Shown here piece by piece: positions 27,377-54,963 of a stretch of DNA of 64,000 nucleotides. A model generated the notes under the pieces. The model saw only the letters and a list, made by a program, of their open reading frames with translations, was not told the DNA's origin and made no database searches. Origin of the DNA: Sneathiella sedimenti (lineage in GTDB: Bacteria > Pseudomonadota > Alphaproteobacteria > Sneathiellales > Sneathiellaceae); NCBI RefSeq assembly GCF_017313765.1, contig NZ_JAFLNC010000005.1:1-64000 (forward strand), given 5' to 3'. The translations under genes were made by a program, and so were the position numbers. Numbering within the stretch: the stretch's first letter is position 1; every line of letters begins with the position of its first letter.

Positions 27377-27697
27377 TCAGGCGTCCGACGACATGTTCAT
27401 CAGCACCAGACCGGAAACGATCAGCAGCGCGGCGATCACCCGCATCGGGCTTGCCAGTTCGCCAAGCACGAAAACCCCGACGAGGAATGCCCCGACCGCG
27501 CCGATCCCCGTCCACACCGTGTAGGCTGTGCCGAGCGGCAGGGCGCGCATGGCCAGCGACAGCAACGCGAAGCTCGCGATCATGGTGACGATGGTGACGA
27601 TACTGGGCGTGAGGCGGGAAAATCCTTCCGACTGCTTCATCGAGTAGGCCCAAATAATTTCAAGAATGCCGGCGGCGACAAGGTAGATCCAGGCCAT
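27377..27697 (-). CDS. gdx: Guanidinium exporter of the SMR family
   Basis: The 106-residue protein has four transmembrane helices and closely follows the SugE/Gdx pattern: AAGILEIIWAYSMKQSEGFSRLTPS with the central E13 that binds guanidinium and protons, then GTAYTVWTGIGAVGAF and LGELASPMRV. Gdx proteins work as dual-topology dimers in the inner membrane, exporting guanidinium for protons. The identification is reinforced by the guanidine-II riboswitch directly upstream. AAGGAG precedes the ATG at 27697. Confidence 0.95.
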   Translation of the reverse strand: MAWIYLVAAGILEIIWAYSMKQSEGFSRLTPSIVTIVTMIASFALLSLAMRALPLGTAYTVWTGIGAVGAFLVGVFVLGELASPMRVIAALLIVSGLVLMNMSSDA

Positions 27698-27701
27698 TTC
27701 T

Positions 27702-27761
27702 TGGCTCCTTCAAATGGCCGGGTCGTCCCGGAAATCACGTAAGCTGCAAGGGTCGTCCCTT
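27702..27761 (-). promoter_or_regulatory. Guanidine-II (mini-ykkC) riboswitch controlling gdx
   Basis: On the minus strand two hairpins carry identical ACGA loops: AAGGG-ACGA-CCCTT (27748-27761) and CCGGG-ACGA-CCCGG (27718-27731), separated by a 16-nt linker. This is the exact architecture of the guanidine-II class: paired small stem-loops with ACGR loops that dimerise around guanidinium. The gdx Shine-Dalgarno (27705-27710) lies 7 nt past the second hairpin, fitting translational control in which ligand frees the ribosome binding site. Confidence 0.95.
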
Positions 27762-27816
27762 TCCCCGCCTAGATAATATATGAGGCGGGGGCACGCAAGG
27801 GGAATCGGCGACAGGC

Positions 27817-53535: not shown

Positions 53536-54009
53536 TTACTCCGCTTGGGTTTGGACGGACTGCTCGGTCATCCCGAACGGCCGCGCCGCAGTGCTTACAT
53601 TCTCCGTGTCGTGACACATATCGGACAGCGTCACTTCCTCGAGCGCGGTATTGAGCGCCCTGTTGATCTTTTCCCAGCCGCCGCGCATCGGGCAGCAGGA
53701 TTCCACCGAGCAGTCATCCACGCTGTCATCAACGCAGGAGGTGACCGCGACCGGTCCTTCCATCGCGCGAACAATCTCGGCGATCGAGATATCCTTTGGT
53801 GCCTTCGCGAGGCTGTAACCGCCGTGGGCGCCGCGCTGTGAATTCAGGAACGGGCTTTTGGCGAGGATGCGCAGGATTTTCGCCGCCGTCGGTACCGGTA
53901 AGCCCGTGTAGAGCGACACATCCGGCGCGGTCATTGTCCGGCCCGGCAGTCGCGCCATTTCGGACATGATCACCACGCCATAGTCGGTCATTTTGCTCAG
54001 CTTGATCAT
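53536..54009 (-). CDS. Rrf2-family SUF regulator
   Basis: The 157-residue protein has a winged helix (MTAPDVSLYTGLPVPTAAKILRILAKSPFLNSQRGAHGGY) and a Cys cluster (C92, C100, C105, C106 in SCVDDSVDDCSVESCCP) that can ligate an Fe-S cluster, as in IscR and the SUF-operon regulators. As first gene of the suf operon it should sense cluster status and repress or adjust the operon. The ATG at 54009 is chosen; a frame reading further upstream (to 54105) crosses the promoter area and is ignored. Name not assigned because sufR/iscR usage differs. Confidence 0.93.
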   Translation of the reverse strand: MIKLSKMTDYGVVIMSEMARLPGRTMTAPDVSLYTGLPVPTAAKILRILAKSPFLNSQRGAHGGYSLAKAPKDISIAEIVRAMEGPVAVTSCVDDSVDDCSVESCCPMRGGWEKINRALNTALEEVTLSDMCHDTENVSTAARPFGMTEQSVQTQAE

Positions 54010-54265
54010 GATATTATCTATATCGTACCAAATTAGTCTCTTTTCAAGAGATTTATAACAGACGGATTTGGTCTTGTATATAGAAGGGGCATAAAATTCT
54101 GGCAAGCGGCGTATTGCCGCAACAGCGTTTATTTTCCCGATTTATGGCCCGTTGCCAGACATCTATCGCTCAGGCAGGGAAAAATCCGCCTGCACCTCGG
54201 GAAAAAAGGGCAGATTCGTTGGAAAGTGGCTTGACAAAAGGCCCCGGCCTGCCGTTTAAATAACG
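54010..54265. other. Divergent control region between suf operon and structured RNA
   Basis: About 255 bp. Minus-strand: the suf promoter should lie in the AT-rich sequence near 54010-54060 (TTGAAA and TACGAT- or TATAGA-like boxes), close to the regulator start. Plus-strand: TTGACA at 54231-54236 and TTTAAA at 54255-54260 (18-bp spacing) form a good promoter pointing to the structured RNA. The middle (54090-54225) shows nothing supported. Confidence 0.5.
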
Positions 54266-54377
54266 CCATGGCATACAACATGAACATTATTGTGGTGAAG
54301 ATTCTCTCCATTCCCCGAATGGCGGAAGTCCGTATGCCGTAACGCAACCGACCCAACCGCCTTCGAGGCGGTTTTTT
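54266..54377 (+). ncRNA. Structured small RNA or leader candidate
   Basis: A transcript of about 110 nt is framed by a consensus promoter (TTGACA 54231, TTTAAA 54255) and an intrinsic terminator (AACCGCC-TTCGA-GGCGGTT plus TTTT, 54355-54377). Inside it, ATGGCATAC (54268-54276) pairs with GTATGCCGT (54332-54340) as a 9-bp stem with one G-U, and CCATTC-CCC-GAATGG (54308-54322) forms an inner hairpin. It also contains a 24-codon open frame starting at ATG 54268 without a ribosome binding site. I do not recognise a known RNA class; sRNA, attenuator leader and small peptide remain open. Confidence 0.6.
54355..54377 (+). terminator. Intrinsic terminator of the structured transcript
   Basis: Seven-bp stem AACCGCC / GGCGGTT with a TTCGA loop, followed by a T-run, 44 bp before the next gene start. 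Confidence 0.88.
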
Positions 54378-54420
54378 AATGCTCCGTCTCCGAAGGCCCC
54401 CAAAACCAGGAGACGACGAC

Positions 54421-54963
54421 ATGTTACTCGAGACCCCTCAGGAAACCACCCCGCCCGGCGAGGAGCCGGACTGTCGACCGACAGAACCGGTTCTCTATCT
54501 GCTGGCCGGCAAGATCGGCGCGGGCAAGTCGACACTTGCCGCCACCCTCGCGCGGCGGCCCAAAACCCTTCTGTTCTCGGAAGACACCCTGCTGTCAGAG
54601 CTGTATCCCGGCGAAGTCACTGACATCAGCAACTATATCCGCTGTTCCCTCCGGCTGAAATATGCGCTGAAGGATCATATCGTCAGTCTGCTCAAGTCCG
54701 GCTTCTCCGTCGTGCTCGACTTTCCCGCCAATACGCCCGACGGCCGCCGCTGGGGCAAGGAACTGTTCGAGGCCGCCGGAGTCCCGCATGAACTGCATTA
54801 TCTCGACATCCCGAACACGATCTGCAAGTCGCGGCTGCGGGCCCGTAACGCGAAGGGCGAGCATCCCTTCCAGACGAGCGATGCCGATTTCGACAAGATC
54901 ACCAGCTACTTCATCCCGCCGATGCCGGAAGAAGGCTTCAACATCATTCGCCATGTGAAATAA
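54421..54963 (+). CDS. Small P-loop ATPase/kinase (AAA_33-like)
   Basis: The 180-residue protein has a Walker A GKIGAGKST (about 30-38), followed by a SEDTLLSELYPGEV strand and RLKYALKDHIVSLLKSGFSVVLDFPANTPDGRRWGKELF, and later LDIPNTICKSRLRARN, the layout of small nucleotide-kinase-like ATPases (AAA_33, sometimes zeta-toxin relatives). No antitoxin partner is adjacent, so a toxin role is not supported. AGGAGAC precedes the ATG; the terminator 44 bp upstream would limit read-through. Confidence 0.82.
   Translation: MLLETPQETTPPGEEPDCRPTEPVLYLLAGKIGAGKSTLAATLARRPKTLLFSEDTLLSELYPGEVTDISNYIRCSLRLKYALKDHIVSLLKSGFSVVLDFPANTPDGRRWGKELFEAAGVPHELHYLDIPNTICKSRLRARNAKGEHPFQTSDADFDKITSYFIPPMPEEGFNIIRHVK

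Follow-up and report, generated by a model that had tools for sequence, protein, structure and literature searches.

A putative leaderless attenuator with isoleucine control codons upstream of an AAA_33 kinase gene in Sneathiella sedimenti, and its likeness to Rfam P9 loci

The attenuators of the enterobacterial ilv, thr and leu systems combine a leader peptide rich in the sensed residues with a choice between the alternative pairings 1:2, 2:3 and 3:4. Rfam family P9 (RF00624) is filed as “Pseudomonas sRNA P9”, and its source is reportedly a 2006 paper. In the alphaproteobacterium Sinorhizobium meliloti, the trpL/rnTrpL RNA starts at the ATG of the leader ORF and is ended by attenuation (PMC7298713). 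Here we describe an element from a 64,000 nt stretch of Sneathiella sedimenti (contig NZ_JAFLNC010000005.1, positions 1 to 64,000; hereafter the window) that has the leader-peptide and 1:2/2:3/3:4 logic in common with the enterobacterial systems and resembles trpL in its predicted attenuation and in its probable start at the leader-ORF ATG, placed here by promoter spacing. Unlike the enterobacterial leaders, its upstream ORF (uORF) sits at the transcript start by promoter geometry, and its target is an orphan P-loop kinase gene with an extra stem over the ribosome-binding site; whereas trpL places Trp codons before trpE(G) (PMC7298713), the element places Ile/Val codons before an AAA_33 gene. 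Our reading is that it attenuates transcription of the AAA_33 kinase gene by a ribosome-mediated mechanism and senses the charging of Ile-tRNA and, in Sneathiella, probably also of Val-tRNA, and on the comparisons below we give this reading a probability of about 0.78.

The element lies between the divergent rrf2-suf operon (minus strand) and the P-loop gene (plus strand). Its features are:

54231-54236 and about 54255-54261, plus strand: predicted promoter, with -35 TTGACA and weak -10 TTTAAAT; start site at or next to A54268
54268-54342, plus strand: uORF of 24 codons, MAYNMNIIVVKILSIPRMAEVRMP and stop; frame kept in 8/8 close copies, Ile excess over 45 leaders
54268-54276 with 54332-54340, plus strand: outer stem ATGGCATAC/GTATGCCGT, found in folds; the uORF start codon lies within it once the RNA is complete
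54308-54313 (CCATTC) with 54317-54322 (GAATGG), plus strand: hairpin 1:2, found in 112- and 75-nt folds; its counterpart covaries across 31 leaders
54321-54325, plus strand: region 2 (GGCGG), the antiterminator's 5′ arm; in the sub-transcript 54319-54364 it pairs with region 3
54357-54361, plus strand: region 3 (CCGCC), common to antiterminator and terminator; three-way covariation with regions 2 and 4 (42 leaders)
54355-54377, plus strand: intrinsic terminator 3:4 (hairpin 54355-54373) with T-run, found by terminator scan and fold
54385-54415, plus strand: stem CGTCTCC/GGAGACG covering the Shine-Dalgarno sequence of the AAA_33 gene; -12.0 kcal/mol, z -3.3
54421-54963, plus strand: AAA_33 P-loop kinase gene, the presumed target

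The original prediction, made from these letters alone, had proposed a structured transcript of about 110 nt with a promoter, an outer stem, a 6-bp inner hairpin and a clean intrinsic terminator; these features are real and, in our reading, together form one cis-acting switch. The minimum-energy fold of 54266-54377 reaches -34.5 kcal/mol against -25.6 (s.d. 3.2) for shuffles (z -2.76) and contains the outer stem, as predicted, together with the inner hairpin. The inner hairpin also forms in the 75-nt fold, but in a 41-nt local fold without the uORF start seven of the eight closest copies, the window included, favour another pairing. A terminator scan returned two terminator-like sites where 0.9 were expected, among them the hairpin at 54355-54373 with its T-run, and this hairpin folds at -11.8 kcal/mol (z -4.0), which bears out the terminator; the 2:3 sub-transcript 54319-54364 folds at -15.0 kcal/mol (z -2.77). 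Conservation of the paired segments, proposed as a check, was read for the outer stem: its 7-bp core is invariant in the eight close copies, so that covariation neither supports nor opposes it, and the uORF starts of more distant copies, read by eye, lack it.

The downstream gene, first described as kinase-like, does encode an AAA_33 P-loop kinase (PF13671, E 6e-28) of 180 residues, with the start codon at 54421 placed from its Shine-Dalgarno sequence and the longest ORF beginning at 54379. A PDB sequence search with this protein returned no relative at E <= 0.01. Its AlphaFold2 model (pLDDT 86) is nearest to polynucleotide-kinase and PFK-2 folds, the closest structures being a GDP-bound fungal kinase, bacterial and mammalian polynucleotide kinases and 6-phosphofructo-2-kinases (query TM about 0.6-0.7). 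We describe the product as an AAA_33 kinase with a polynucleotide-kinase-like predicted fold, which does not fix the substrate. The stem at 54385-54415 is largely kept in the eight close copies.

A BLAST/DNA search of 40 genomes, which had been suggested as a check for relatives, placed the element in eight Sneathiella genomes out of 24, its own included, with the uORF intact from ATG to stop in all eight; L009 and L010 were rejected as terminator-only matches (the ninth hit in the genus is a bare terminator). The core sequence occurs in seven public contigs, six from Sneathiella and one labelled “Alphaproteobacteria bacterium”; Sneathiella litorea and S. chungangensis are among the species with the element. 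A covariance model of the close clade, R1, gave eight strong hits in the genus; three weak hits (L026, L028, L031) proved real on reading and three others (L027, L029, L032) read as unrelated terminators. Under stricter filters, R1 found strong hits in the own genome and G003 among 385 genomes of the class, together with a weak but real one in G287 (L033) and a further hit (L034) that was a terminator only; L030 and L035-L038 stayed outside the reading.

A search with the kinase located 20 AAA_33 loci at E <= 1e-36 in the 24 Sneathiella genomes, and by eye 18 of them carry this type of leader upstream while two (G010, G021) carry another class. Ten diverged Sneathiella leaders without the outer stem follow a common plan, in which an ATG just 3′ of a -10-like hexamer opens an Ile- and Val-rich frame 16-24 codons long. 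GGCGG, a spacer and CCGCC come next, and most of the ten then have a 3′ arm rich in GG and a stem that covers the ribosome-binding site of the next gene. The T-run after the 3:4 hairpin is absent in six Sneathiella copies (G005, G007, G009, G015, G019, G023), which may rely more on the second stem. Upstream neighbours vary, from the rrf2-suf side in the close clade to tRNA-Val in G009 and G011, while the leader stays with AAA_33, which indicates that leader and kinase gene move together; an attenuator is expected just upstream of the gene it controls and to be inherited with it, and this is what 18 of the 20 loci present. The same constancy weighs on a different explanation, that of a trans-acting small RNA whose terminator and stems provide stability and whose kinase neighbour is incidental. 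The strong fold and terminator would suit such an RNA, and rnTrpL of S. meliloti acts in trans (PMC7298713), but a leader that keeps its AAA_33 neighbour while its upstream neighbour changes, and that combines a conserved frame with three-way covariation, points to a switch in cis, and we consider a trans-acting small RNA very unlikely as the explanation. The predicted terminated RNA of about 110 nt might also act in trans.

For the attenuator reading, the uORF was compared over 45 leaders, 18 from Sneathiella and 27 from elsewhere, anchored by eye on the uORF ATG. Most of the non-Sneathiella leaders came from 30 P9 loci fetched in a survey of Pseudomonadota; L090-L092 (chance matches by eye), L083 (anchored at a wrong start), and G010 and G021 with their other leader class were left out, and G482 was added. 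In tests that are not independent, as the leaders are related and their uORF starts were chosen by eye, the uORF frame contains 161 Ile codons, compared with 33 and 22 for the two alternative frames, and dinucleotide shuffles gave a mean of 72 and a maximum of 103 in frame; a reduced set of 30 leaders has 110, where shuffles average 48 and reach 67 at most. Frame 0 is strictly the richest in Ile in 38 of the 45 leaders. Val accounts for 12.3% of leader codons in Sneathiella and 5.4% elsewhere, and the order of residues varies across leaders (IIVVKIL, IVAVIL, IVVAII, IIIVIVKV) at constant Ile/Val content. The clustered codons of a sensed amino acid that an attenuator uORF should contain are thus present, and in the window the control codons are likely Ile7, Ile8, Val9 and Val10 (54286-54297) with Ile12 (54301-54303).

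Within the eight close copies most residues of the peptide are conserved, the stop codon exchanges between TAA and TGA, and G013 has an in-frame 3-nt insertion that adds a codon. Conservation of frame and residues in 8/8 copies would be expected of a functional small protein whose mRNA is structured by chance; over the 45 leaders, however, neither the sequence of the peptide nor its length (16-29 residues) is conserved, whereas the Ile content and the RNA switch are, and we find a functional small protein hardly credible.

The promoter had been called near-consensus, which holds for the perfect -35 hexamer but not for the -10, which is weak; a strict sigma-70 scan of 53800-54900 found no promoter, a result that the poor -10 and a spacer of 18-19 bases presumably explain. 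The sequence CTTGACAA is invariant in 8/8 close copies (own included) and TTTAAATA of the -10 region is kept in 6/8; the upstream sequence otherwise drifts. Aligned on the ATG, the 45 leaders display a signal resembling TTGACA between -36 and -31 and a -10 rich in T/A between -13 and -7; 36/45 have C at -1, and no Shine-Dalgarno-like signal precedes the uORF in the profile. The original observation of a 24-codon ATG frame at 54268 without a ribosome binding site agrees with the sequence, which has no Shine-Dalgarno there. Since the -35 and -10 stand at a fixed distance from the ATG and a Shine-Dalgarno signal is missing, the uORF transcripts are probably leaderless, the 5′ end being placed by promoter spacing alone.

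Regions 2, 3 and 4 were counted by a script that by construction finds only GGYGG/CCRCC cores, the MAFFT alignment having misplaced region 3 in several rows, and a core could be defined in 42 of the 45 leaders (G005, G009 and G411 have none). The middle bases of regions 2/3/4 are C,G,C in 25 leaders, T,G,C in 12, C,G,T in three and T,A,T in two; the sixth bases are G,C,G in 27, A,A,T in eight, A,T,A in four, A,T,T in two and G,A,A in one. The A,A,T state is that of the window's clade, in which 3:4 pairs at this position and 2:3 does not. On these counts the predicted antiterminator and terminator co-vary three-way at two positions, as mutually exclusive structures of an attenuator should, over 42 leaders, although the signal is weak in the window's own clade taken alone. 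In that clade 2:3 consists of only five GC pairs, with z between -0.8 and -1.7 against shuffles (-1.2 for the window itself), and 2:3 is among the best 5% of its own shuffles in only 25/45 leaders, in a test for which the terminator finder had taken the 1:2 hairpin instead in four of the 45. Hairpin 1:2 has 86.2% of its cells paired in 31 leaders, against 33-67% when slid, and a covariation of 0.303 against 0.224 (s.d. 0.015); two of its five measures are not clearly above shuffles (double-change pairs 24/500, pair types 229/500).

A ribosome was then simulated as a mask over the 5′ side, with the RNA folded just before region 4 is made. The probability of 2:3 is at least 0.5 at some stall codon in 42/42 leaders; the free RNA disfavours 2:3 in 34 of them and already favours it in eight. 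Ile makes up 122 of 418 productive stall codons and 32 of 448 others. The reduced set of 28 leaders gives 85/299 and 20/238 respectively, a result that holds for three assumed footprints, while in its other two frames Ile is at about 3% and the contrast is absent. In these predicted folds, Ile codons cluster at the positions from which a stalled ribosome would tip the balance towards 2:3.

Comparison between genomes supports the conserved frame, the codon bias, the alternative pairings and the gene linkage, and on the same basis ribosome-mediated attenuation of the kinase gene appears well supported. Expression, stalling and the tRNA as signal are the parts of the model that we infer. The transcript would begin at the A of the uORF ATG or beside it, and this leaderless start is where a ribosome would load. 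If Ile-tRNA, and in Sneathiella probably also Val-tRNA, were scarce, the ribosome would stall on the ATT/GTG codons at 54286-54303 and cover region 1, so that GGCGG (region 2) could pair with CCGCC (region 3), no terminator would form and the kinase gene would be transcribed. Translation to the stop codon would instead place the ribosome over region 2, allowing 3:4 to form and transcription to end; with no ribosome loaded, region 1 would hold region 2, with the same outcome. Termination would release the RNA of about 110 nt, and the kinase gene may be subject to further control at its ribosome-binding site through the second stem (54385-54415). The original prediction had offered an sRNA, a metabolite-sensing leader or a leaderless peptide; in our model attenuator leader and leaderless peptide are one and the same thing, whereas the retention of the uORF as a frame with Ile/Val codons and the covariation of regions 2, 3 and 4 as a termination switch make a free-standing sRNA or a metabolite aptamer less likely.

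At gathering threshold, Rfam recognised only a tRNA and a guanidine-II riboswitch in the whole window. Up to E 10 the element itself had four matches, P9, isrK, lysM-Prevotella and mir-3804, with no riboswitch family among them, and of these only P9 held up. The earlier statement that it matched no known RNA family was nearly right, but the element is a sub-threshold relative of P9, scoring 23.7 bits where the gathering score is 43 and thus falling outside RF00624 by score. It has the layout of that family, with Ile codons in the uORF followed by regions 2 and 3 and the terminator, and P9 presents the same order of Ile-codon uORF, hairpin, GGYGGG, spacer and CCCRCC...GGYGGG terminator. No hit in the 24 Sneathiella genomes exceeds the gathering score, the best being 42.6 bits (G007) and 42.5 bits (G022), the latter a diverged copy of the AAA_33 leader; at E <= 1 the model matches all 24 of these genomes and 5/14 control genomes, so weak hits mean little. 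The hit in G007 (L131, C55:15649-15730) is a separate P9-like leader; the gene after it encodes a GKPGSGKST kinase, an arrangement that other proteobacterial genomes also have.

Across 398 Pseudomonadota genomes RF00624 exceeds its threshold in 17 (18 hits), and in 0/14 control genomes. For 17 of the 18 hits the locus was retrieved and its downstream gene read. Five have a threonine-deaminase-type gene next to them (L063-L067; a PALP match confirms four, L066 is assigned by eye), and L063 and L067 exceed the TIGR01124 (ilvA) cut-off; four precede AAA_33 kinases (L075, L077-L079) and four SnoaL-like genes (L069, L071, L072, L076), all eight confirmed; three precede the GKPGSGKST P-loop kinase (L068, L073, L074), with only sub-cut-off AAA_18 matches; and one runs off the contig end. 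Among sub-threshold hits, L087 precedes an ilvA-type gene over the NF006390 cut-off, L080 an AAA_33 gene and L083 an aspartate kinase gene. In G451, G455 and G528 a single P9 leader is followed by a SnoaL-like gene and then by an AAA_33 gene (L069, L071 and L072 with L113-L115), a shared row which suggests that the two orphan families work together. Conversely, AAA_33 matches at E <= 1e-20 occur in 24 of 249 Pseudomonadota genomes, own included; upstream of these, read by eye, there is a P9-type leader in eight (five directly, three via a SnoaL gene), a second class of leader in three and no recognisable leader in 13. The P9 loci seen here resemble attenuators before ilvA and other genes, and by their sequences they appear to be the same kind of Ile-codon leader switch as the Sneathiella element. 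Our literature search found no paper on the P9 sRNA (RF00624) as an ilvA leader, and the available parts of the sources searched, including PMC2965389, PMC7298713, PMC2659441, PMC3349714 and PMC2864571, contained no description of P9 as an attenuator or as the leader of AAA_33 genes.

The second class of leader has a uORF ending R-I-[S/T/R]-x-P-A-stop, with the stop codon in the 5′ part of a CCCGGCC...GGCCGGG hairpin (loci L048, L049, L096, L101, L103 and L117-L125). Its pattern matched in 9/372 genomes of the class and in 0 controls among the matches listed. Downstream are AAA_33 genes at L121 and L122 (Pfam) and at L123-L125 (by eye), and an NTF2-like DUF6841 gene at L120, with genes at L117 and L119 that look similar by eye but have no Pfam match. 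Its mechanism is probably different, as the motif contains a single Ile codon.

Within Sneathiella, ordinary branched-chain amino acid regulation by leaders like that of the AAA_33 gene was not seen: by eye there is none in the 500 nt upstream of the best ilvB and none in the 330 nt upstream of three ilvA-like loci, none of which exceeds the TIGR01127 cut-off. Upstream of ilvB in G000 (C2; L126) there is a terminator-like hairpin with a T-run and no evident Ile/Val leader peptide. The Ile/Val signal of the Sneathiella element consequently rests on its codons and on P9 before ilvA elsewhere, and Ile-tRNA, plus Val-tRNA, is the likeliest reading of these sequences. The same attenuator could instead answer to a ribosome stalled on the nascent peptide by an antibiotic or other translation stress, with the kinase in a protective role. 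Stalling peptides of macrolide-resistance genes also have Ile/Val stretches, and such a role would accord with a target that is a small kinase and no recognised biosynthetic enzyme and with the lack of such leaders at ilvB and ilvA-like genes of Sneathiella. A residue order that varies at constant Ile/Val content is nevertheless easier to reconcile with codon sensing than with a defined arrest peptide, and P9-type leaders stand before ilvA and, at the one sub-threshold locus L083, before aspartate kinase; we regard stalling by drugs or stress as unlikely and retain tRNA charging as the signal of the attenuator.

Two other observations concern regulation in the window. On the rrf2-suf side of the gap, an inverted repeat ACCAAATTAGTCT/AGACGGATTTGGT at 54027-54039 and 54060-54072 changes in both arms together in G020 and G001 (ACCAATT/AATTGGT) and in only one arm in G018 and G013, and is perhaps the operator of the Rrf2 regulator. 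The guanidine-II riboswitch, at 27718-27764 on the minus strand and above threshold, lies just before a SugE-like SMR transporter ORF (27377-27697, minus strand; 121 bits, SugE cut-off 126), an ordinary arrangement of riboswitch and transporter.

The mechanism proposed for the element is of a known kind; its leaderless form, its orphan-kinase target and the re-reading of P9 are new as far as the literature was searched. A bolder view, which we hold to be quite improbable, is that P9-type leaders define an unrecognised “isoleucyl-tRNA shortage” regulon of orphan genes (polynucleotide-kinase-like AAA_33, the second P-loop kinase family and SnoaL-like genes, sometimes in one operon), in which damage to the tRNA would count as shortage alongside lack of charging, and the kinase would serve RNA/tRNA repair or another translation-stress response. 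If the attenuator reading is true, the Rfam “sRNA gene” P9 becomes a leader-peptide switch, the orphan kinase and SnoaL-like families gain a testable input signal in Ile/Val-tRNA, and a family is added in which leaders starting at their own ATG seem to be common.
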